Of a DNA stretch of 8,815 bases, positions 1 to 8,803 are shown piece by piece (position 1 is the stretch's first letter; each line of letters opens with the position of its first letter). The position numbers were made by a program, and so were the translations under genes. Origin of the DNA: Acidimicrobiaceae bacterium. GTDB lineage: Bacteria > Actinomycetota > Acidimicrobiia > Acidimicrobiales > UBA8190. Location of the stretch: the NCBI GenBank assembly GCA_003131945.1, contig PKWD01000142.1, forward strand, positions 896 to 9,710, written 5' to 3'. The notes below the pieces were generated by a model. The model ran no database searches and was not told the origin of the DNA. It saw only the letters and a list, made by a program, of their open reading frames with translations.

Positions 1-331
1 TCTCGAAGCCGCCGCCCATGGCGACGCCGTTGACGGCGGCGATGATCGGCTTCGAGAACGTCCGCTGGACGATGCCGGCGAATCCCCCGGGGGCGCCCAT
101 GATCGGCCCACCCTCGCCCGAGGCGAAGGCCTTCAGATCCATTCCGGCTGAAAAGGCCTTCTCCCCGGATCCGGTCAGAATGACGACCCAGCAATCGTCG
201 TCGACCTCGAGTTCGTCCAACGCGCTCGACATGGCCTGGCTCACAGCGCCGTTGACGGCGTTGCGGGCCTCGGGCCGATTGATGGTGAGGATTTCGACGT
301 GACCGCGACGCTCACGCTCGACTGCTGACAT
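1..331 (-). CDS. Enoyl-CoA hydratase/isomerase (crotonase family), N-terminal part, runs off the left edge
   Basis: The reading frame starts at ATG 331-329 and stays open to the window edge, giving 110 residues of a protein that is usually about 250-270. Visible crotonase features are an N-terminal strand with LTINRPEARNAV (residues 15-26), the CoA/oxyanion-hole segment AFSAGMDLKAF (59-69), and AAVNGVAMGGGFE (98-110). The last visible residue, E110, is at the position of the first catalytic glutamate of rat enoyl-CoA hydratase; the second lies outside the window. Enzymes of this family hydrate trans-2-enoyl-CoA in beta-oxidation, and some isomerise or cleave instead. An AAAGGGAG Shine-Dalgarno at 344-337, 5 nt before ATG, supports the start. 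It is the last visible gene of a minus-strand set with an acyl-CoA dehydrogenase, a thioesterase and a thiolase-like protein. Family is certain; the exact substrate (possibly a steroid side-chain enoyl-CoA) is inferred from context. Confidence 0.93.
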   Translation of the reverse strand, partial: MSAVERERRGHVEILTINRPEARNAVNGAVSQAMSSALDELEVDDDCWVVILTGSGEKAFSAGMDLKAFASGEGGPIMGAPGGFAGIVQRTFSKPIIAAVNGVAMGGGFE

Positions 332-484: not shown

Positions 485-1948
485 TTATCCGGAGATCCGG
501 TAGCGCAGAGGCGGGCCGCGCACATCGATCCGAGAACCCACCAGGTTGCGTGCCGCCAGGCACGGGAGCTCGGAGACGTCGGCGGCCGCCGCTATGTGGC
601 GTCCGTCTTCGAGGCGGGCGATAACCGGCGCGGCGGTGATCTCGCCCCCGCGGCCATTCACCACAGTCGAGGCGACCACGACAGCCGGACCGGCGGCTTC
701 GGTGGCGATCTCGACGGCCGTGGCGTCAATGGCCGCCTGCGCTGCGGTGGTGTCGCCCGGGCGCCATCCCCGGGGTGGGGGCTCCGCTCCGTAGACCCCG
801 GCCGCGTGTTTCGTCAGGTACCAGCCGAAGGCGGTCACGAGCCCGGTGCCACCCCCGACGCGCAGGCGGTCGACCATCGTGGCCACCGCATGCAGCGAGT
901 AGTTGTTCCCGGGGCCGCCGAAATAGGGGAGTCCGCCGGTGACGGTCAGGCGTCGCTCATCATCGAGCGCCACCCCGAGCGCATCGGCCGCCAGTTCCAC
1001 GGCGCACGGGAAGCATGAATAGAGGTCGAAGGCACTGAGCTCATCGACACCGGTGCCGGCCGCCTCCAGGGCCGCCGACGTACTCGCCGACATGGCGGGA
1101 GCCGTACCCGGGTCGGGACGGGCGGCGGGGAACCACACGTCTGTGCATTCGGCGCCCGACCAGCAGAACACGGCCTCCTCGTCCACGCCCGCTCGTCGCG
1201 CCGCCGCCAGCGAGGTGACGACGACGGCAGCGCCCTGGTCGACGGTGAACATGGCACACATGTTCTTGGCGTAAGGCTCGGAGATGAGCCGGTTGTCGGG
1301 CGTGATCTCGGACAACTCGGCCGGTGTGCGGGCGTCGGGGAACCACGCGTAGTCATGCGCGGCTGCCACCGTCGTGAAGGGAGCCAAGAGCCGGCCCAGT
1401 TCGGCGCGGTGTTCGGCCGGACTCCGGCCCGCACGGTGGGCAATGACGCTCTCGAACAGTGCGTAGAGGTGGATGGGGGCGATCAGGCCGGCTTGAAACT
1501 CGGCCGGGCTCACCGGAGGTCGGTCATCGCCGATGACGGGATCGGGTGGACCAGCTGTGTGGCCCCTGTCGTCGGGGACCGAACCACCTTCGCGCGCCGA
1601 GCGCTGGGCCTCAGCTCCGGCGATGAGGACGACGTCGATGTCGCCGGCGCTGATGGCCTTGGCGGCCCGGTTGACGAGCCATTGTGGCGAGTTCCCGCCG
1701 ACCGTCGTCGTCTCGGTGCGGGCGGGCGACAGGTGCAGCCGTCGGGACAGATCGGCCCCCGGTGCGCTCCCCGCCGGTGAGATGATGTTGACGACGGAGA
1801 CCTGCTGGACCTCGGCCTGCAGCTTGGGCACGCGGTCGAGCGCCACCCGGGCGGCGCGCTCAGCCAGATCCAGCGCCGACACCGTGGTCAGGCGTTCGAT
1901 GGATTGTCCGGTCGCCACCACTACCGGAAGCCGGTCGTCCGATGTCAC
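485..1948 (-). CDS. Thiolase-like protein, TLP1 type (acetyl-CoA acetyltransferase-like) with C-terminal extra domain
   Basis: 487 residues from GTG 1948-1946, chosen because AGGAGAGG (1960-1953) sits 4 nt upstream. A longer in-frame GTG at 2011 would only add a Thr-rich 21-residue tail. The N-terminal ~390 residues have thiolase architecture: the nucleophile-loop region TVGGNSPQWLVN (82-93), the SCP2/thiolase-like segment LYSCFPCAVE (309-318), and GGPGNNYSLHA (344-354) where thiolases carry GHPxGxTG. The normally invariant nucleophilic Cys is replaced: S87 occupies that place, and the usual C-terminal CxG appears as HAAGVYG (381-387). Residues ~395-487 match what is known of the additional C-terminal domain of mycobacterial type-1 thiolase-like proteins (TLP1). 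Those proteins are generally thought not to be classical thiolases; they may bind CoA or lipid, or act as lyases with a partner. Many databases label them acetyl-CoA acetyltransferase. Role here: probably a late step of acyl-CoA or steroid side-chain degradation, inferred from neighbours. Confidence 0.9.
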   Translation of the reverse strand: MTSDDRLPVVVATGQSIERLTTVSALDLAERAARVALDRVPKLQAEVQQVSVVNIISPAGSAPGADLSRRLHLSPARTETTTVGGNSPQWLVNRAAKAISAGDIDVVLIAGAEAQRSAREGGSVPDDRGHTAGPPDPVIGDDRPPVSPAEFQAGLIAPIHLYALFESVIAHRAGRSPAEHRAELGRLLAPFTTVAAAHDYAWFPDARTPAELSEITPDNRLISEPYAKNMCAMFTVDQGAAVVVTSLAAARRAGVDEEAVFCWSGAECTDVWFPAARPDPGTAPAMSASTSAALEAAGTGVDELSAFDLYSCFPCAVELAADALGVALDDERRLTVTGGLPYFGGPGNNYSLHAVATMVDRLRVGGGTGLVTAFGWYLTKHAAGVYGAEPPPRGWRPGDTTAAQAAIDATAVEIATEAAGPAVVVASTVVNGRGGEITAAPVIARLEDGRHIAAAADVSELPCLAARNLVGSRIDVRGPPLRYRISG

Positions 1949-1952
1949 GAAG

Positions 1953-1960
1953 CCTCTCCT
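1953..1960 (-). promoter_or_regulatory. Ribosome binding site that decides the thiolase-like start
   Basis: The minus strand reads AGGAGAGG four bases before GTG 1948-1946. No comparable site precedes the upstream in-frame GTG at 2011, so translation most likely begins at 1948. Confidence 0.75.
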
Positions 1961-2012
1961 TGTGTCGGTGGTGGCGGTGGTGTCGGTGACGGTGACGGTG
2001 GCGACCGACACA
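1961..2012. repeat. Short-period CACCG-type repeat bounded by a 9-bp inverted repeat
   Basis: The spacer before the thiolase-like gene is a low-complexity run built from 5-6 nt units of the type CACCGT, CACCGA and CACCAC on the minus strand. It is bounded by TGTGTCGGT (1961-1969) and its exact complement ACCGACACA (2004-2012). The arms could pair around a 34-nt loop immediately upstream of the ribosome binding site. Function unknown; it may simply be slippage-generated sequence. Confidence 0.5.
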
Positions 2013-2047
2013 GCGCGTCGCCGAGTCGGGAGTCCGACAGCGTGACC

Positions 2048-2146
2048 TCAGCCCTGACCGGCGGCGAACCGTTCGGGATCGACGGCCACGAACAACGATT
2101 CCGCTTTGGCCAGGAGGACGTCTCCATGGCGCGCCTCCCCGGCCAT
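2048..2146 (-). pseudogene. Detached C-terminal fragment of the hot-dog thioesterase (frameshifted continuation)
   Basis: This 32-residue frame, too short for usual ORF calling, begins at ATG 2146-2144 and ends at TGA 2050-2048. It contains GDVLLAKAESLFVAVDPERF, the expected final strand and tail of a PaaI/4HBT thioesterase. Reading the same frame backward adds RKLLM before the Met's successor residues, again as the family predicts. It lies in the -1 frame relative to the upstream piece. The upstream stop and this ATG overlap as TGATG, so the fragment could be made by stop-restart translation. Otherwise it marks a recent one-base loss, a two-base gain, or a sequencing error. No canonical slippery heptamer is visible. 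Confidence 0.75.
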
Positions 2147-2748
2147 CAGAAGCTTCCGAAGTCTCTACTGGTGAGACGGGCACGGAATTCCAACGGGACC
2201 CCGATCGGTACCGGTGCCCGGTACGTCACGGTGAGCCGGCCGGTGAAAGCAGGTGTGCAGTTGATCGAGAGGACGAAACCCATGGCCTCGTCGAAGAGGG
2301 CGGCCACCATGCCGCCATGAGCCCGCCCCGGGGCACCCTCGAAGGCGTCGCCGAGGGTGCAGTGCAGAACAGCGTCATCCCCGTCGCGAAACGTCTGGGC
2401 CGCGACACCCATGGGATTGGCCGGGCCGGTCACGATGCAGTCGGTGAAATGACTGCCTCGGACACCCCCCTGGGTAGGGGGAACGACGAAAAGGTCGCGG
2501 CTCATGTTCAGCGTGGGGCGCTGTCGCGGGGGAGATGCCTCCACCTGTGCCAGCAACTCTTCCACCGTCGTCGTCATGCGATGCAAGACGTCGTCGTCCA
2601 TCTCGTGGGCCACGATGGCGTGACCCAGTCGACGCATCGCAGCAGCCGCCTCCAGTCGTGCTGGGGATACCAACGTCCCGTCGCCGTCGAGGGCGGCGGT
2701 ATCGCTGGAGTCGTCGATGGCGGTCAATTGTGGGTGATCTGAGCCCAC
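2146..2748 (-). CDS. PaaI/4HBT-family hot-dog acyl-CoA thioesterase, C-terminus frameshifted
   Basis: A 200-residue frame from GTG 2748 to TGA 2148-2146. Hot-dog thioesterase signatures are GRAHGGMVAALFDEAMG (141-157), with HGG at 144-146 and D153 in the catalytic or oxyanion region, followed by the strands FTGRLTVTYRAPVPIG (168-183). A helical N-terminal region (~30-75) precedes the domain. The family hydrolyses acyl-CoA thioesters, releasing CoA. GTG 2748 overlaps the end of the dehydrogenase gene by 25 nt and has a modest AAGGG upstream; TTG 2727 is an alternative. The expected last beta strand is missing from this frame: after LTSRD the frame reads FGSF and stops, while the true continuation lies in the -1 frame at 2146-2048. 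As it stands the product would lack the last strand of the sheet, so it may be inactive unless the second piece is supplied. Confidence 0.85.
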   Translation of the reverse strand: MGSDHPQLTAIDDSSDTAALDGDGTLVSPARLEAAAAMRRLGHAIVAHEMDDDVLHRMTTTVEELLAQVEASPPRQRPTLNMSRDLFVVPPTQGGVRGSHFTDCIVTGPANPMGVAAQTFRDGDDAVLHCTLGDAFEGAPGRAHGGMVAALFDEAMGFVLSINCTPAFTGRLTVTYRAPVPIGVPLEFRARLTSRDFGSF

Positions 2749-3935
2749 GCGACGCCCTTGTCCGCCTCGAAGTCGCGGGGGAGTCCCAGGATCCGCTCGG
2801 CCATCTGGTTGCGCAAAACCTCTGACGTGCCCCCTTCGATGGTGTTGGCCCGGGCCCGCAGGAAGGTCGTGGCCCGGGCTTGGGACTTTGTGTCGTCCGA
2901 GGCCCAGGCGATTCCGGCCATACCGTTGACATCGACAGCGAAACTCGATCGTCGTTGGTTGTACTCGGCGTTGAACACCTTGTTGACCGCTCCCTCCGGT
3001 CCCGGCTGCTGGCCCCGCATGCGGGCTGAGTTGGCCCGGAAGGCGGTGATCTCCTTCACTTCGGACTCGATGTAGAGCTGGGCCAGTCTCTGGCGGACGC
3101 GCCGGTCGGTCCGGTCAGGGATCTGATCGAGATAGGACTGCCAGGCGTCGCGCCGCACGCCTCCCGAGAACGAGACGGGGTCGAGAGATATACCGGCCAA
3201 CGCCACGCGCTCGTTCATCAAGGTGGTGCGGGCGCAGCGCCAGCCGTCACCCACATCACCCACCCGGTTGGCGTCGGGTATGCGCACATCGGTCAGGAAT
3301 ACTTCGTTGAACTCCGAGGAGCCGGTCATCTGCCTCAAGGGGCAGACTTCGATCCCTGGTGTTTTCATCTCCACAATGAAGTAGGTGAGGCCCTCGTGCT
3401 TGGGCACGTCAGGATTGCTGCGGGCCAGCAACATGCCGAAAGCAGCGAACTGGGCAATCGTCGTCCAGACCTTCTGACCGTTCACGACCCACTCGTCGCC
3501 GTCGCGCACGGCCCGCGTCCGCAGCGAGGCCAGGTCGGTGCCGGCTTCGGGTTCGGTGTAGCCGATGGCGAAGTTGATGTCCCCGGCCAGGATGCCGGGC
3601 AGGAAGTAGGACTTCTGCTCCTCGGTGCCGTAGCGCATGATGGTCGGTCCCACGGTGTTGACGGTGACGAAGGGGAACGGCGCGTCGGCCTTGCGGGTCT
3701 CGACGAAGAAGATGAACTGGTCGGTGGCCGGTCGGCCCTGGCCGCCGTACTCCTTCGGCCAACCGACGCCGAGCCAGCCGTCGGCGCCGATCTTGCGCAC
3801 GGTGTCACGCCAGCGCTCGCCGCCTTCGCCCACTTCGCCGATGCCGGCCCGGACCTCGTCGGTCATGAGCGCGGCGAAGTAGGCGCGCAACTCCTGCCGT
3901 AGGGCCTGCTGCTCGGGGGTCTCCTCTAAGAACAT
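2724..3935 (-). CDS. Acyl-CoA dehydrogenase (FadE26/FadE28-like)
   Basis: 403 residues, full length for the family. It catalyses FAD-dependent alpha,beta-desaturation of acyl-CoA, passing electrons to electron-transfer flavoprotein. Visible features are an N-terminal helical domain (PEQQALRQELRAYF, 7-20), WPKEYGGQG (59-67), the flavin/substrate signature GYTEPEAGTDLASLRT (125-140), VVNGQKVWTT (150-159), and the C-terminal IEGGTSEVLRNQMAERILGLPRD (366-388). E367 is at the usual catalytic base position. It resembles the mycobacterial FadE26-type enzymes that act on cholesterol side-chain CoA esters. Those work as two-gene heterotetramers, while only one subunit gene is visible here. ATG 3935-3933 is the first gene of the minus-strand operon, 36 nt from the nearest edge of which, at 3986, further upstream lies a KstR-like operator (50 nt from the ATG). 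Its ribosome binding site is weak. The stop overlaps the thioesterase start region. Family is secure; steroid substrate is inferred. Confidence 0.95.
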   Translation of the reverse strand: MFLEETPEQQALRQELRAYFAALMTDEVRAGIGEVGEGGERWRDTVRKIGADGWLGVGWPKEYGGQGRPATDQFIFFVETRKADAPFPFVTVNTVGPTIMRYGTEEQKSYFLPGILAGDINFAIGYTEPEAGTDLASLRTRAVRDGDEWVVNGQKVWTTIAQFAAFGMLLARSNPDVPKHEGLTYFIVEMKTPGIEVCPLRQMTGSSEFNEVFLTDVRIPDANRVGDVGDGWRCARTTLMNERVALAGISLDPVSFSGGVRRDAWQSYLDQIPDRTDRRVRQRLAQLYIESEVKEITAFRANSARMRGQQPGPEGAVNKVFNAEYNQRRSSFAVDVNGMAGIAWASDDTKSQARATTFLRARANTIEGGTSEVLRNQMAERILGLPRDFEADKGVAWAQITHN

Positions 3936-3984
3936 GGTCGCCCGTCCGTTCGGTCCGGGCCGGGGCTACCCGGTCCCGGCCTCG

Positions 3985-3990
3985 CTATAA
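3985..3990 (-). promoter_or_regulatory. Possible -10 element for the minus-strand operon
   Basis: The minus strand reads TTATAG at 3990-3985, an AT-rich island in GC-rich DNA about 50 nt before the dehydrogenase ATG. It overlaps the operator at 3986-3999, as expected for repression. No convincing -35 box is visible, so this is tentative. Confidence 0.3.
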
Positions 3991-3999
3991 CTTGTTCTA
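3986..3999. promoter_or_regulatory. KstR-like operator, left copy
   Basis: TATAACTTGTTCTA is an exact match to TNNAACNNGTTNNA, the consensus published for KstR, the TetR-family repressor of cholesterol catabolism genes in mycobacteria and rhodococci. It lies 50 bp upstream of the acyl-CoA dehydrogenase start, in the promoter position for the minus-strand operon. Eight fixed positions make a chance match in a 200-bp gap unlikely, and a second copy lies in the same gap. The regulator gene itself is not in this window. Confidence 0.7.
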
Positions 4000-4097
4000 C
4001 TTTTTGACGCTACCAGTAGGGCCCAGCCGTCCGACAATCGCAGACGGGCCCTGCCGCGCGCCACCGGGCCATGCTGGTGCCCGGAGAGGGCCGGGCG

Positions 4098-4103
4098 TAT
4101 CAT
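4098..4103 (+). promoter_or_regulatory. Possible -10 element for the P450 operon
   Basis: TATCAT differs from TATAAT at one base and would put the transcription start near 4110, at the left edge of the second KstR-like palindrome. That gives a leader of about 26 nt. The -35 region is not convincing. Confidence 0.35.
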
Positions 4104-4109
4104 CCCAAG

Positions 4110-4123
4110 TGGAACACGTTCTA
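4110..4123. promoter_or_regulatory. KstR-like operator, right copy
   Basis: TGGAACACGTTCTA is a second exact match to TNNAACNNGTTNNA, centred 19-20 bp before the P450 ATG. Its last base is also the first base of the AGGAGG ribosome binding site. Bound repressor would cover the likely transcription start. Together with the copy at 3986-3999 it suggests joint repression of both divergent operons. Confidence 0.72.
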
Positions 4124-4128
4124 GGAGG
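4123..4128 (+). promoter_or_regulatory. Ribosome binding site that decides the P450 start
   Basis: A perfect AGGAGG lies 7 nt before ATG 4136. The in-frame upstream TTG at 3992 has no such site and would translate the operator region, so the start at 4136 is preferred. Confidence 0.85.
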
Positions 4129-4135
4129 ACCAGGC

Positions 4136-5380
4136 ATGGAGCTCAGCGACATCGATCTCACCGATGCGGAGGCCTATGTCGCCGCCGTCCCCCACGAGCA
4201 GTTCACCTTCCTGCGCCAGAACGCCCCCGTCTGGTGGCACGAGGAGACCGACGGCCCCGGCTTCTGGTGCGTGACCAAGTACGACGACTGCGTGGCCGTC
4301 AACCGCGAGTACGACACCTTCTCCTCGGCGAAGAAGGCCACCTTCATCTGGGAGCTGCCCGACGACGCCATCGAACAGCAGAAGCTGATGATGCTGAACA
4401 TGGACCCGCCGCTGCACACCCGCTACCGGCGGCTCGTGAACAAGGGCTTCACCCCCCGGACCATCTCGCAGCTCGAGGAGAAGATCCACGAGACGGCCGA
4501 CGACATCATCGACGCCGTCATCGAGAAGGGCGAGGCCGACTTTGTCACCGACATCGCCGCCGAACTGCCCCTCGTCGTCATCGCCGATCTCCTGGGCGTG
4601 CCCCAGGAGGACCGCCACAACATGTTCGACTGGTCCAACCGGATGATCGGCCGGCTCGACTCGGAGTACGCCGAGGACGGCGCCGGCGATCTCGACGATC
4701 CCGAGTACGTGACCCAGGCGGCCATGGAGCTCTACGCCTACGCCGCCGATCTGTACTCGAAGAAGCGGCTGGATCCGCACGAGGACCTCATGAGTGTCCT
4801 CACCCAGGTCGAGTTGGAGGGCGACAAACTCTCCGAACTCGAGCTCGAGCTGTTCTTCCTGCTCCTCACCGTGGCCGGCAACGAGACGACGCGGAACCTC
4901 ATCTCGGGGGCCATGTACACCTTCTTCCAGAACCCCGACCAATGGGAGAAGCTCCGCAACGACCGGTCCCTCATGGCCAAGGCCGTGGAGGAGATGCTCC
5001 GCTACGTCACCCCGGTCATGAACTTCCGGCGCCAGACGACCAAGCCGACGGAGCTGCGGGGCCAGAAGATCGACGCCGACCAGAAGGTCGTCTTCTTCCA
5101 CATCTCGGGCAACCGCGACGAGGACATCTTCGAGAACCCGCAAGTCTTCGACATCGCCCGCTCCCCCAACCCGCACATGGCCTTCGGCGGCGGCGGCCCC
5201 CACTTCTGCCTCGGGGCCAACCTGGCCCGTATGGAGATCCGGGTGATGTTCCAGCACCTGCTCGACCGGCTCCCCGACATGCGCCAGGACGGGGATCTTC
5301 AGCGCCTCCAATCGTCGTTCATCAACGGCGTCAAGCACCTACCCATCGCCTTCTCGCCCGGCCAGCCCGTCCGGCGCTGA
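4136..5380 (+). CDS. Cytochrome P450, CYP125/CYP124/CYP142-like
   Basis: 414 residues, soluble bacterial P450 length, no membrane anchor. Landmarks are the I-helix oxygen-activation motif AGNETT (247-252), ExxR as E286-M-L-R289, and the haem loop FGGGGPHFCLG (350-360) with C358 as the thiolate ligand. Segments such as PVWWHEE (31-37), MMLNMDPPLHTRYRRLVNKGFTPR (starting at 85), LLGVPQEDR (152-160) and VAGNETTRN closely resemble, from memory, mycobacterial CYP125. CYP125 is the cholesterol C26/27 hydroxylase, and the related CYP124 and CYP142 also oxidise terminal methyl groups of sterols and branched lipids. Electrons would come from a ferredoxin and reductase, not present here. It leads the plus-strand operon, with a KstR-like operator touching its ribosome binding site; the next gene begins 48 nt downstream. 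P450 identity is certain. Terminal hydroxylation of a sterol or methyl-branched lipid is a strong inference. Confidence 0.96.
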   Translation: MELSDIDLTDAEAYVAAVPHEQFTFLRQNAPVWWHEETDGPGFWCVTKYDDCVAVNREYDTFSSAKKATFIWELPDDAIEQQKLMMLNMDPPLHTRYRRLVNKGFTPRTISQLEEKIHETADDIIDAVIEKGEADFVTDIAAELPLVVIADLLGVPQEDRHNMFDWSNRMIGRLDSEYAEDGAGDLDDPEYVTQAAMELYAYAADLYSKKRLDPHEDLMSVLTQVELEGDKLSELELELFFLLLTVAGNETTRNLISGAMYTFFQNPDQWEKLRNDRSLMAKAVEEMLRYVTPVMNFRRQTTKPTELRGQKIDADQKVVFFHISGNRDEDIFENPQVFDIARSPNPHMAFGGGGPHFCLGANLARMEIRVMFQHLLDRLPDMRQDGDLQRLQSSFINGVKHLPIAFSPGQPVRR

Positions 5381-5428: not shown

Positions 5429-6325
5429 GTGCGCTTCCACCAGGCGGTGACCTTTCTGCCCACCCACCATCAGGTGGCGTTGGCCCGAGCAGCCGACGAC
5501 CAGGGCTACGACGGGATCTACCTCTCCGATCACATGTTCTCGCCGCGCGACCGTCAGTCGCGCTACACCTACTCGAAGGCTGAGGACGGCGCTCCCGGCT
5601 GGGAGGCCGACACCGAATGGCCCGACGTCTGGTGCGTCATCTCGGCCATGGCGGCGACGACGAAGAGGGTTCGCTTCACCACCGGCGTCTACGTGGCCCC
5701 CGCCCGCGACCTCATCACGGTGGCCAAACAGGTCGGCACCGCCGCTGTGCTCTCGTCCAACCGTGTGACACTCGGGGTCGGCGTCGGGTGGTGCAAGGAG
5801 GAGTTCGACGCCACCGGTCAGGACTTCTCCACCCGGGGCAAGAGGCTCGACGACATGATCCCGGCCCTGCGGGCGCTGTGGAGCGGCGGCTGGGTCGAGT
5901 ACCACGGACCCCAGTACGACTTGGCCCCTCTCAAGATGGAACCATCACCGACCGCCCCCATCCCCATCATCGGCGGGGGCCACTCGGCACCGGCTCTGCG
6001 TCGGGCCTCTGAATTGTGCGACGGCTGGGTGGCGGCCGGGGCCTACACCCCCGACGAAGCGCGCCAGTACCTCGGACTGCTGCACGAGGCCCGCCACCGG
6101 GCCGGACGCGAGAGCGAACCCTTCGACATCTTCCTGTCGCTGTGGACCAACCCCGATGTCGACACCTACCGGAGATTCGAAGAGGACTACGGCGTCACCG
6201 ACATGCTGAGCGCGCCGGCCATGGTGGCCGAGGTCGACCCCTCGGACTCCCCCGACGCCCAGTTGCAGACGCGCATCGACGCTTCGGCCCGCTACGCCGA
6301 AGAGGTCATGCAGAAGATGCAATGA
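5429..6325 (+). CDS. LLM-class (luciferase-like) F420-dependent oxidoreductase, Rv2161c/TIGR03619-like
   Basis: 298 residues from GTG 5429, with GGAG at 5419-5422, 6 nt upstream. The bacterial luciferase-like TIM-barrel pattern is visible: LARAADDQGYDGIYLSDHMF (18-37), TTKRVRFTTGVYVAPARD (77-94), the core strand LGVGVGWCKEEF (115-126), RGKRLDDMIPALRALW (136-151), and the phosphate-binding strand IPIIGGG (178-184). Members bind F420 or FMN. In actinobacteria most of this subgroup use F420 for hydride transfer, but the cofactor cannot be proven from sequence alone. It sits 48 nt after the P450 and 25 nt before another LLM enzyme, suggesting one transcript and a redox step on the same substrate class. 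The substrate is unknown. Confidence 0.9.
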   Translation: MRFHQAVTFLPTHHQVALARAADDQGYDGIYLSDHMFSPRDRQSRYTYSKAEDGAPGWEADTEWPDVWCVISAMAATTKRVRFTTGVYVAPARDLITVAKQVGTAAVLSSNRVTLGVGVGWCKEEFDATGQDFSTRGKRLDDMIPALRALWSGGWVEYHGPQYDLAPLKMEPSPTAPIPIIGGGHSAPALRRASELCDGWVAAGAYTPDEARQYLGLLHEARHRAGRESEPFDIFLSLWTNPDVDTYRRFEEDYGVTDMLSAPAMVAEVDPSDSPDAQLQTRIDASARYAEEVMQKMQ

Positions 6326-6350: not shown

Positions 6351-7385
6351 ATGGGAAAGCTGAAGCTCGGCCTGCAGATGGGCTACTGGGGTTCAGGGCC
6401 CCCACCCGACGCCGCCGCCCTGGTGCTCGAAGCCGAGCGCCTCGGCTACGACTCGGTGTGGACGGCCGAGGCCTACGGGTCCGACGCTCTCACCCCGCTG
6501 GCCTGGTGGGGGGCGGCCACCACCAAGGTCCGCCTCGGCACCGCTCTGTGCCAGCTGTCGGCCCGCACGCCCACGGCCATGGCCATGGCCGCCCTCACCC
6601 TCGACCACCTGTCGGAGGGTCGCTTCACCCTCGGTCTCGGAGTGTCGGGACCGCAGGTGGTCGAAGGTTGGTACGGCCAGGACTTCTCGAAGCCTCTGGC
6701 CCGCACCCGCGAGTACGTGTCGATCGTGCGCCAGGTGCTCGCCCGCCAAGCGCCCGTCAGAAACGCCGGGCCCCACTACCCGTTGCCCTACCCCGGTGGC
6801 CTCGGCCTCGGTAAGCCCTTGAAGCCCATCGTGCATCCGCTACGGGCCGACATCCCCATCGTCCTCGGGGCCGAAGGGCCGAAGAACGTGGCCCTGGCGG
6901 CCGAGATCGCCGACGGCTGGTTCCCCATCTTCTTCTCCCCCCACCACATGGGTGAGTTCAAAGACGCCCTCGACGAGGGCTACGCCCGGCCCACGGCGCG
7001 GCGCAGTGCGAAGGACTTCGAGGTCATCGCCTTCTGCCCGGTGGTCGTGAACGACGACGTCGAGCAGGCCGCCGATCTCTACCGGCCCATGCTCGCCCTC
7101 TACATAGGAGGGATGGGGGCGCGCGACATGAATTTCCACTTCGACGTCTTCGTCCGCATGGGTTTCGAGAGCGAGGCGCAGAAGATCCAGGATCTCTACC
7201 TCGAAGGTCACAAGGAGGACGCCGCGGCGGCGGTGCCCACGGCCATGGTGGAGAAGATCGCCCTCATCGGTCCCCGGGCCAAGATCGTCGACGACCTCGC
7301 CGCCTGGCAGGAGTCCTTCGCTACCTCCCTGCTCGTGGCCGGCAACGCCGCCACCCTGCAGATGATGGCCGAGCTCCTCCTCTGA
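6351..7385 (+). CDS. LLM-class F420-dependent oxidoreductase, Rv3520c/TIGR03559 family
   Basis: 344 residues from ATG 6351, preceded by GGAGGAG at 6342-6348. It has the luciferase-like barrel with subfamily-typical stretches: KLGLQMGYWG (5-14), SVWTAEAYGSDALTPLAWWG (35-54), the core LGLGVSGPQVVEGWYGQ (94-110), a long KPLKPIVHPLRADIPIVLGAEGPKN run (155-179), and LALYIGGMGARDMNFH later. These match what I recall of M. tuberculosis Rv3520c, a predicted F420-dependent enzyme encoded near cyp142 in the KstR-controlled cholesterol region. Its reaction is not established. It is distinct in sequence from the LLM gene just upstream, so this is not a recent tandem duplication. Context points to a reduction or oxidation in steroid or lipid breakdown. 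Confidence 0.92.
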   Translation: MGKLKLGLQMGYWGSGPPPDAAALVLEAERLGYDSVWTAEAYGSDALTPLAWWGAATTKVRLGTALCQLSARTPTAMAMAALTLDHLSEGRFTLGLGVSGPQVVEGWYGQDFSKPLARTREYVSIVRQVLARQAPVRNAGPHYPLPYPGGLGLGKPLKPIVHPLRADIPIVLGAEGPKNVALAAEIADGWFPIFFSPHHMGEFKDALDEGYARPTARRSAKDFEVIAFCPVVVNDDVEQAADLYRPMLALYIGGMGARDMNFHFDVFVRMGFESEAQKIQDLYLEGHKEDAAAAVPTAMVEKIALIGPRAKIVDDLAAWQESFATSLLVAGNAATLQMMAELLL

Positions 7386-7429: not shown

Positions 7430-8476
7430 ATGACGTGGATGATCTACGGCGCGTACGGCTACACCGGCCGGCTGGTGGCCGCCCTGGCCACCGAGCGGGG
7501 CGAGCTCCCCATCCTGGCCGGACGCGACGAACGCCGGCTGCGTGACCTGGGCGAACTCTTCGAGTTGGAGCACCGCGCCTTCGACCTCGCAAACGCTGAC
7601 GCTGTGCGCCAGGGTCTAGAGGGGATCGACGCCGTGGCCCACTGCGCCGGGCCCTTCTCGTCCACCGCCGCCCCCATGGTGGACGGCTGCCTGGCCACCG
7701 GCACCCACTACCTCGACATCACCGGCGAGATCGACGTTTTCGAGGCCGTGCTTGCCCGGGGGGACGAGGCCCGGGAGGCCGGGATTTCCCTCCTGCCCGG
7801 ATCGGGCTTCGACGTCGTGCCCTCGGACTGTCTGGCCGCCCTGCTCGGTCGGGCCCTCCCTGAGGCCACCCGCCTCGAGCTCGCCATCAAGATGGGCGGC
7901 GGCGTCTCACCGGGCACGGCCAAAACGGCCATGGAATCCCTCGGCAGCGCCGGCCGGGCCCGCATCGGAGGGGTCATCGGACCCGTGCCCTCGGACCGCC
8001 GGCGCCGTCAGGTCACCTTCGCCGACGGGAAGTCCACCGTCTTCGCCATCGCCTGGGGCGACGTCAGCACCGCCTACCACTCCACCGGGATCGGCGACAT
8101 CGTCGTCTACGCGGCACTGCCGGCAGCGGTCGGCGCCATCACCGGCGTGGCCCAGATGGCCGGCCCCGCCGCACGCAGTGCCATCGTCCAAGGGACACTG
8201 AAGCGACTGGTGAGCCGGCTCCCCGGTCCCTCGGCCAAAGCCCGCTCGGAGGGCCCCGGTCAGCTGTGGGGCCAGGTGTCGGATCGCAACGGCACCCGTG
8301 TCCAGGGCACCATCACGACACTGAACGGCTACGACCTCACCGCCGATGCCGTCGTGCGCATCGCCCAGTCGCTCACGGCCGGGAAGGTCGAGCCCGGTGC
8401 GCTCACTCCCTCACAGGCTTTCGGTCCCGACTTCGTGCGCGAGCTCGACGGCTCCCAGGTGCACGCCATCGGCTGA
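7430..8476 (+). CDS. Saccharopine dehydrogenase-like NAD(P)-binding protein (trans-acting enoyl reductase-like)
   Basis: 348 residues from ATG 7430, with GAGGTGA at 7419-7425. The N-terminus is a Rossmann fold with a GxxGxxG motif as G7-A-Y-G10-Y-T-G13, a second-strand ILAGRDERRL (28-37), and AVAHCAGPFSSTAAPMVDGCLATGTHYLDITGE (68-100), a hallmark of the saccharopine dehydrogenase NADP-binding family. The region LLPGSGFDVVPSDCLA (121-136) is also typical. In actinobacteria, homologues with this architecture include the trans-acting enoyl reductases of glycolipid synthesis and many uncharacterised proteins. True lysine-pathway saccharopine dehydrogenase is unlikely in this company. It lies 44 nt after the Rv3520c-like gene and ends 21 nt from the convergent gene. 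A reductase role in the same lipid pathway is plausible but unproven. Confidence 0.88.
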   Translation: MTWMIYGAYGYTGRLVAALATERGELPILAGRDERRLRDLGELFELEHRAFDLANADAVRQGLEGIDAVAHCAGPFSSTAAPMVDGCLATGTHYLDITGEIDVFEAVLARGDEAREAGISLLPGSGFDVVPSDCLAALLGRALPEATRLELAIKMGGGVSPGTAKTAMESLGSAGRARIGGVIGPVPSDRRRRQVTFADGKSTVFAIAWGDVSTAYHSTGIGDIVVYAALPAAVGAITGVAQMAGPAARSAIVQGTLKRLVSRLPGPSAKARSEGPGQLWGQVSDRNGTRVQGTITTLNGYDLTADAVVRIAQSLTAGKVEPGALTPSQAFGPDFVRELDGSQVHAIG

Positions 8477-8501
8477 CCGCCATGAGAGATGCGTCGGTCA
8501 G
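8473..8501. terminator. Short inverted repeat spanning both convergent stop codons
   Basis: CTGACCG (8473-8479) and CGGTCAG (8495-8501) form a 7-bp stem with a 15-nt loop. Each arm contains the stop codon of one of the two convergent genes. It may act as a weak bidirectional terminator. No U-tract is seen on either side, so confidence is low. Confidence 0.35.
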
Positions 8502-8803
8502 GGAACCCAGGCGTCGTGGTGTTCCCGGGCGAATCGCCTTTCGTCATCGGTCAAGTCCGAGTCCCGGACGGGGGTCACGAGGCTCCAGTGTTTTCCGACC
8601 GGACAGCGCTGGACCCGGGCCACGCCGAGATCCAGTGCCTTGAACTTCACCCCGGGAATCCAGATCGTCGTGAAGAGGTGACCCTGGCGGCACCGCACGA
8701 CGACGTTGCCGCCCACCTTGTAACCGAGAAGCCTCGCCACCAACGTTCCCGCGCCGACGACGGCGATGATGAGGACCAGGGGGGAGATGGGTCGCCGGGA
8801 CAC
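8498..8803 (-). CDS. Small single-helix membrane protein with a Cys/His (zinc-ribbon-like) tail, unknown function
   Basis: 101 residues from GTG 8803; the frame remains open to the right edge, so the true start may lie beyond the window. One hydrophobic helix spans about residues 7-25 (PLVLIIAVVGAGTLVARLL region). It is followed by VGGNVVVRCRQGHLFTTIWIPG (30-51), then VQRCPVGKHWSLVTPV (64-79). The pattern C38-x3-H42 and C67-x4-H72 could bind one metal ion. The tail is acidic and helical. I recognise similar conserved hypothetical proteins in actinobacteria but no assigned function. It converges on the NAD(P)-binding gene with a 21-nt gap and is probably not part of the lipid operons. Confidence 0.78.
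   Translation of the reverse strand: MSRRPISPLVLIIAVVGAGTLVARLLGYKVGGNVVVRCRQGHLFTTIWIPGVKFKALDLGVARVQRCPVGKHWSLVTPVRDSDLTDDERRFAREHHDAWVP

Follow-up and report, generated by a model that had tools for sequence, protein, structure and literature searches.

Two palindromes in the gap between a divergently transcribed acyl-CoA dehydrogenase operon and a cytochrome P450 operon very probably serve a KstR-like TetR repressor as operators, each of the two promoters having its own, by the mechanism set out below. They lie in an 8815-bp stretch of DNA, the whole of which was analysed and is called here the window. The original prediction had ascribed the control of both operons to a KstR-type TetR regulator, perhaps in a lineage in which none had been described. 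At the level of sequence, the first part of this proposal is supported by the conservation of the sites, by a KstR-like protein in relatives and by the co-occurrence of operator and regulator across the order. As to the second part, no report of KstR in the Acidimicrobiales or in the class Acidimicrobiia was found among the open-licence PMC papers listed, in line with what had been suspected. Thus, what is seen here appears to be a known kind of control system that reaches a deep branch of the phylum, for which those papers yielded no earlier report.

Two palindromes occupy the gap between divergent operons

The original prediction had described two exact palindromes in a 200-bp gap between the dehydrogenase and P450 operons and had found no other full match in the window. 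Both were confirmed at the coordinates listed in Table 1, and exactly 200 bp (3936-4135) were found to separate the two divergent start codons. A search of all 8815 bp on both strands for the pattern TNNAACNNGTTNNA returned operators 1 and 2 as the only full matches. The accompanying estimate, that two such matches would arise by chance about 5 times in a million under uniform base composition, has the right order of magnitude by arithmetic. On average 0.03 matches to TNNAACNNGTTNNA would be expected per window, and two in one sequence never occurred in 200 dinucleotide shuffles. We also scored the window with a KstR matrix derived exclusively from 47 published mycobacterial sites (Table 3 of Kendall et al. 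2007, PMC1995591), which gave 19.5 bits for operator 1 and 24.8 bits for operator 2. The published mycobacterial sites themselves range from 12.7 to 26.3 bits on this matrix, and the best score in 200 random Markov windows was 17.9 bits, below both operators.

The sole other match above 10 bits in the window (10.3, at 4616) falls within the P450 gene, where a further AACNNGTT core, AACATGTT, occupies positions 4619-4626. Since the 14-mer of this region, or a one-base variant of it, recurs inside the P450 genes of seven relatives (L001-L005, L011 and L012), it probably reflects coding conservation. The actinobacterial LexA/SOS box is a GAAC...GTTC palindrome with a four-base centre. It shares these outer bases with the window operators, but the centre of the latter has two bases, and identity with a LexA box was set aside on the length of the centre.

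Table 1. Features of the window, with positions counted from its first nucleotide
Feature	Position	Strand	Description	Basis
Crotonase-family protein	2-331	-	truncated at window edge	Pfam ECH_1
Thiolase-like protein	485-2011	-	458 bits, under cut-off of 654	NCBIfam PRK08257.1-3; PDB 4egv, E 4e-63
Thioesterase-superfamily protein	2146-2748	-	overlaps end of dehydrogenase gene	Pfam 4HBT, 33.6 bits (cut-off 20.6)
Acyl-CoA dehydrogenase, ChsE-like	2724-3935	-		Pfam acyl-CoA dehydrogenase domains
Operator 1 (putative)	3986-3999	-	TAGAACAAGTTATA on - strand (TATAACTTGTTCTA on + strand); assigned to acyl-CoA dehydrogenase operon	exact motif match
Candidate -10, dehydrogenase promoter	4007-4012	-	TAGCGT, 7 nt upstream of operator 1	read from sequence
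Candidate -35, dehydrogenase promoter	4032-4037	-	TTGTCG, 19 nt from -10	by eye, weak
Candidate -10, P450 promoter	4098-4103	+	TATCAT, 6 nt upstream of operator 2	
Operator 2 (putative)	4110-4123	+	TGGAACACGTTCTA; assigned to P450 operon; between -10-like hexamer and ribosome-binding site	exact motif match
Ribosome-binding site	4124-4129	+	GGAGGA, immediately 3' of operator 2	read from sequence
Cytochrome P450, CYP125-like	4136-5380	+	steroid C26-monooxygenase type	PDB matches
F420-type luciferase-like oxidoreductase	5429-6325	+		NCBIfam TIGR03619, above cut-off
F420-dependent oxidoreductase, Rv3520c family	6351-7385	+	476 bits (cut-off 335)	NCBIfam TIGR03559
Saccharopine-dehydrogenase-like NAD(P)-binding protein	7430-8476	+		Pfam Sacchrp_dh_NADP

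The genes around the operators (CYP125-like P450, ChsE-like dehydrogenase and Rv3520c-family oxidoreductase) fit sterol side-chain catabolism. Among P450s of known structure, that of the window is closest to CYP125. Its best PDB matches were the ancestral CYP125, CYP125MRCA (E 2e-155), and mycobacterial CYP125 (about 1e-99), CYP124 and CYP142 ranking lower. In the case of the dehydrogenase, the only PDB matches at E <= 1e-40 were Tcur3483 and 4x28, which we take to be heteromeric sterol side-chain dehydrogenases. Judging by its spacing, the saccharopine-dehydrogenase-like gene is probably part of the P450 operon.

The sites are conserved in related P450 loci

The closest relative of the window P450 (91% identity) was found in an Acidimicrobiaceae metagenome bin of the GTDB collection (G001), followed at 59-77% identity by eleven further metagenome bins of the same collection. 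Eight of these twelve bins are labelled Acidimicrobiales or Acidimicrobiaceae, three 'uncultured actinobacterium' and one 'Acidobacteriota' (L012, genome G006). Beyond them, at 35-46% identity, came a Frankiaceae bin, three Nocardioides and a Frankia. Judging by these relatives, the Acidimicrobiales are the most likely source of the window. We compiled 46 P450 loci, that is, 16 of the 17 loci in the first set of relatives (all but L011, in which the P450 start is missing) and 30 more; L001 and L135, both among the 46, are the same gene. The divergent dehydrogenase was detected by searching the minus-strand translation upstream of the P450 for a motif, and a KstR matrix match of at least 11 bits was counted as a gap site.

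A divergent acyl-CoA dehydrogenase was present upstream of the P450 in 11 of the 46 loci. Conservation of the operators in relatives, which had been suggested as a check, was evident in these: the gap held at least one matrix site in all 11 and two sites in 10, and in eight (L002, L003, L004, L005, L012, L136, L138 and L140) one site faced each gene. As for the remaining three, L143 has one site and L148 and L150 have two sites 22 bp apart. These last are two identical TGAAACAGGTTATA sites upstream of the P450, arranged as a direct repeat, a layout unlike that of the window. Among the 35 loci with no detectable divergent dehydrogenase, 14 had a match within 420 bp upstream, including L001/L135, which lies at a contig end, and 21 had no matrix match upstream of the P450.

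A side-by-side comparison was made of the window and eight relatives that were chosen for having both sites facing both genes, the unselected count being that of the 46 loci. On the dehydrogenase strand, operator 1 reads TAGAAC-NN-GTT-NNA in all nine sequences, and its place holds a full TNNAACNNGTTNNA match in each of the eight relatives, chosen as they were for holding both sites. Operator 2 reads TGRAACRCGTTCT in nine out of nine; the last A of the published core occurs here in the window only, with G or C in the eight relatives. Across these nine loci of the same layout the operators are 54-201 bp apart, and either site keeps its place at its own promoter throughout. From the sequences, each operator seems to move together with the promoter that it serves, and the two look like separate operators, one per promoter, rather than a shared one. 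Because of this variation in spacing, a single operator serving both promoters was set aside.

In the closest relative both 14-mers are unchanged, and the locus is split across two contigs (L096 and L097). The identical operator 1 precedes the same dehydrogenase gene (G001:C62, that is, L097) and the identical operator 2 lies 25 bp before the P450 (L001/L135). Although operator 1 is identical, the 3' part of the operon differs between the window and this relative: the shared dehydrogenase is followed by the thioesterase-like and thiolase-like genes in the window (485-2748) and by a ChsH2-domain protein and a second dehydrogenase in L097 (56-2273).

It could be argued that only one of the sites is functional and that the other, presumably operator 1, which is further from the consensus, is weak or vestigial. 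The lower matrix score of operator 1 points in this direction, as do its counterpart in L004, with only 11.9 bits, and the single site of L143. However, the score of operator 1 lies inside the range of the published sites, and its TAGAAC-NN-GTT-NNA is kept in the window and all eight compared relatives, so we consider a single working site very unlikely and prefer the reading with two functional operators.

Two further observations concern these loci. The contig titled 'Acidobacteriota bacterium' (L012) carries the same divergent pair with both operators, and a KstR-like gene is present in its genome; this is either a mislabelled bin or a transferred locus. In L003, a further operator of 21.9 bits (8781-8794) overlaps the start of another acyl-CoA dehydrogenase-like frame of that contig (7604-8788, minus strand).

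Promoter layout and proposed mechanism

Both operators sit just downstream of candidate -10 hexamers, a position that, as far as can be judged from the sequence, would be suited to blocking RNA polymerase. By eye, seven of the nine compared sequences (window, L002, L003, L004, L005, L012 and L136) have a TANNNT hexamer 6-8 nt before operator 1, and none was seen in L138 and L140. A weak resemblance to the candidate -35 of the dehydrogenase promoter, TTGTNN, was noted by eye in L002, L003, L004, L012 and L136. Before operator 2, TATCAT is present in seven of the nine (window, L002, L003, L004, L005, L012 and L138) and -10-like variants in the other two (TATGAT in L140 and TAACAT in L136), with a distance of 2-6 nt between hexamer and operator.

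According to the mechanism that we propose, when no inducer is present a repressor dimer would occupy each operator, over or just after the transcription start, and would block RNA polymerase sterically. The bound dimer would cover the stretch just after the -10 and, at the P450 promoter, would reach the ribosome-binding site. A breakdown product of the sterol side chain would then bind the repressor, and both operators would be freed. The inducer of KstR, 3-oxo-4-cholestenoyl-CoA, is of the acyl-CoA thioester type and, by analogy, the same may be expected here. As a result, both operons would be switched on together, that of the P450 for hydroxylating the end of the side chain and that of the dehydrogenase for side-chain beta-oxidation.

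Relatives encode a KstR-like TetR regulator

The original prediction had also pointed to a KstR homologue as something to be looked for. Using the NCBIfam KstR model NF033703, whose curated cut-off is 280 bits, we found one clearly separated KstR-like TetR protein in 16 of the 17 relatives' genomes, including that of the closest relative; it was not found in G012, where the best match to the model reached 26 bits. In 11 of the 12 closest bins the scores were 141-163 bits. The Frankiaceae bin reached 234, two of the Nocardioides 278 and 264, and the Frankia 155, while the third Nocardioides has the protein in two pieces (156 and 94 bits). The regulators of the two Nocardioides species are therefore nearer to the KstR model than those of the 11 closest bins. 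The next matches in each genome scored 31-51 bits, except for 67 in G007 and 81 in the Frankia. None of the 17 relatives' genomes and none of the 198 genomes of the order had a protein passing the 280-bit cut-off, which one Nocardioides protein also narrowly missed, at 278. Given the distance between this cut-off and the scores in the 11 closest bins with the protein, we keep to the cautious name 'KstR-like'. TetR genes within the loci, or a general TetR search, were uninformative by themselves for spotting KstR.

The closest relative has a single KstR-like TetR protein (P0001; 156 bits, next match 51 bits), and we infer that the window's own genome carries such a gene as well. The best solved-structure match of P0001 is KstR (E 3e-31; next different protein 1.1e-22), and the DNA-binding helices of KstR are kept in it almost word for word. 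When the proteins of 11 relatives were compared with a Nocardioides KstR, the DNA-binding half was 58-70% identical and the ligand half 28-35%. A protein search returned 2562 relatives of the regulator at E <= 1e-30. Among the 120 matches listed, 18 bear the JGI name 'cholesterol catabolism regulator', so that at least one annotation pipeline already identifies the regulator. At the regulator's own locus, a matrix match of at least 13 bits was present in only 3 of 11 relatives (L051, L059 and L060), so that self-regulation may not be general. Several genomes of the order (G157, G160, G170, G086 and others) hold two or three full-length KstR-like proteins, which suggests the existence of paralogous regulators.

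An alternative explanation is that the operators are used by a different TetR repressor with a KstR-like recognition helix, namely a paralogue that responds to another inducer, e.g. another lipid or a bile-acid-type acyl-CoA. This would agree with the low identity of the ligand half, with regulator scores below the KstR cut-off and with the presence of at least two KstR-like proteins in G157, G170, G160 and G086. Nevertheless, the closest relative has just one such protein, and the targets are of the steroid type (a thiolase above the cut-off of its model, ChsH2 domains and a CYP125-like P450). Overall, we regard a different TetR repressor as improbable and favour a KstR-like repressor of sterol genes.

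Operator and regulator co-occur across the order

We then considered 198 genomes of the order, classing as KstR-positive those with a best E < 1e-20, a line drawn after seeing a gap between 5.6e-22 and 5.6e-14; G042 and G158, which have only fragments of the protein, were counted as positive. A KstR-like protein was present in 63 genomes and absent in 135. Of the 63 regulator-positive genomes, 38 contained the strict palindrome TAGAACNNGTTCTA (107 sites), compared to 8 of the 135 regulator-negative ones (8 sites), whereas a reversed control pattern gave 5 and 33 sites, respectively. The Fisher test for this co-occurrence gave P = 2e-16, a value that overstates independence because the genomes share ancestry. 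The strict operator was missing in 25 of the 63 genomes with the regulator.

Looser patterns behaved differently. The permissive TNNAACNNGTTNNA exceeded its reversed control in 7 of 10 genomes, in some of them narrowly; it tied with the control in G001 and was below it in G005 and G009. The one-mismatch form of the strict pattern was at or below the control in 11 of 12 genomes and above it in one. Since loose patterns were not clearly enriched in single genomes, we relied on the exact strict pattern across the 198 genomes and on the matrix of published sites. With respect to the exact palindrome, the motif is not scattered at random; random scatter is the outcome that the original prediction had named as speaking against it.

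Taken together, the shuffles, the matrix scores, the sites in 11 of 11 divergent loci and the co-occurrence with the regulator led us to reject a chance match. We likewise hold it to be extremely improbable that the palindromes are there by chance or have been kept for promoter or RNA reasons rather than for repressor binding. Such a reading could draw on the looseness of a motif with eight fixed positions and on the lack of clear enrichment of the loose forms per genome; against it, a site is found in every divergent-pair locus despite the changing spacing, both operators outscore 200 random windows, and operator and regulator occur together. Binding by a KstR-like repressor would account for these sites better.

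G012 (L006) has three exact strict sites, yet no KstR-like protein was found in it; alongside its seven strict or one-mismatch palindromes there are 11 matches to the reversed control, and its P450 is not preceded by a site. It may be an incomplete bin or a genome with another regulator.

Comparison with known KstR systems

The M. tuberculosis genes Rv3545c and Rv3546 are presumably cyp125 and fadA5. The gap between them and the Rv3520c/Rv3521 region each contain a KstR site with a positive gel shift (Table 3 of PMC1995591). The mycobacterial KstR regulon, as presented in that paper, resembles the window in having the same palindrome, in sharing kinds of targets (cyp125, an Rv3520c-family oxidoreductase and a steroid thiolase) and in placing many sites between divergent genes, one region having two sites. 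The position relative to the promoter differs: the mycobacterial kstR site is upstream of and partly over the -10 (PMC1995591), while the window operators are just downstream of it. Compared to Mycobacterium KstR, the Acidimicrobiales relatives represent a deep branch in which the ligand-binding half has diverged and self-regulation may not be the rule. KstR is also known in Nocardioides (PMC7807495, PMC7593942), whose CYP125-like loci L014 and L015 are like the window in having two KstR-type palindromes upstream of the P450.

KstR2 is likewise a TetR repressor of cholesterol catabolism. Its palindrome differs from that of KstR. Furthermore, KstR2 governs ring C/D genes and not side-chain genes (PMC4810484). 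The string 'Acidimicrobi' is absent from the main text of that survey of steroid degraders, and marine Acidimicrobiales with CYP125 and cholesterol genes have been described (PMC10205998).

The system described here would widen the known range of KstR control, which so far covers chiefly mycobacteria and a small number of other Actinomycetia, to an order whose members are mostly uncultured, and it supplies operator positions that can be tested. A regulator with a conserved DNA-binding half and a diverged ligand half lets one ask what it senses. In addition, the operator may help to annotate sterol degradation in metagenome bins of the Acidimicrobiales.

Other predicted targets are side-chain genes

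The steroid 3-ketoacyl-CoA thiolase model NF005889 was matched above its cut-off in 97 of the 198 genomes, so that the thiolase is commoner than the regulator (63 of 198). We took the 20 thiolase loci with the best E-values, one per genome, and applied a matrix threshold of at least 11 bits. A site was present within 250 bp upstream of the thiolase gene in 17 of the 20 loci, compared to 4 matches in the remaining 74.8 kb of these loci, and 18 of the 20 genomes had a KstR-like protein. In G055, both the P450 and the thiolase gene have a site, and no KstR-like protein was found; G113 has neither site nor protein; the other thiolase loci lacking a site, L208 (G018) and L211 (G039), belong to genomes with a KstR-like protein. 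In 5 of the 17 thiolase sites (L198, L204, L206, L207 and L209), AAC-NN-ATT replaces AAC-NN-GTT, e.g. TAGAACAGATTCTA, which is possibly a lineage variant of the operator.

We also inspected the neighbours of sites in 20 regions from the relatives. The site adjoins a steroid thiolase, identified by the model, in L098, L106 and L111, a double-length acyl-CoA dehydrogenase in L114, and a dehydrogenase followed by a gene with ChsH2 domains in L097. In L101 it adjoins a CoA ligase that faces a short-chain dehydrogenase, with a luciferase-like oxidoreductase after it; the ligase is also found in L105. In L099 the site and a second P450 are about 0.7 kb apart. In G008 (L115), the oxidoreductase pair known from the window faces a dehydrogenase, and the stretch between them contains two sites at a distance of 42 bp but no P450. 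No evident sterol gene was seen beside the site in L100, L102, L104, L110 and L112 of the 20 regions.

The predicted targets are thus sterol side-chain genes of the CYP125-like, steroid thiolase and ChsE/ChsH types. Of the 12 relatives searched, two have KshA_C and two a KstD-type protein above 400 bits, all counts being from draft bins, which makes the absence of KshA or KstD weak evidence. None of the 12 relatives reached the KstD cut-off, and the Nocardioides check genome also fell below it. As most of the 12 relatives have the regulator and no clear KshA or KstD, it is conceivable, if rather doubtful, that KstR control predates the split between the Acidimicrobiales and other Actinobacteria, that it first served to sense and regulate the removal of the sterol side chain (P450, CoA ligase, dehydrogenases, hydratase and thiolase), and that full control of the ring genes was added later in mycobacteria and their kin. 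The question raised is whether side-chain control was the ancestral core of the KstR regulon.

Finally, a small protein containing the wording VVRCRxGHLFTT is encoded near the P450 operon (8498-8803, minus strand); the window copy had no Pfam or NCBIfam match at E <= 0.001. A similar-looking protein of the VVRCRxGHLFTT type is found in L106 (1604-1978, minus strand), beside the KstR site and the steroid thiolase.
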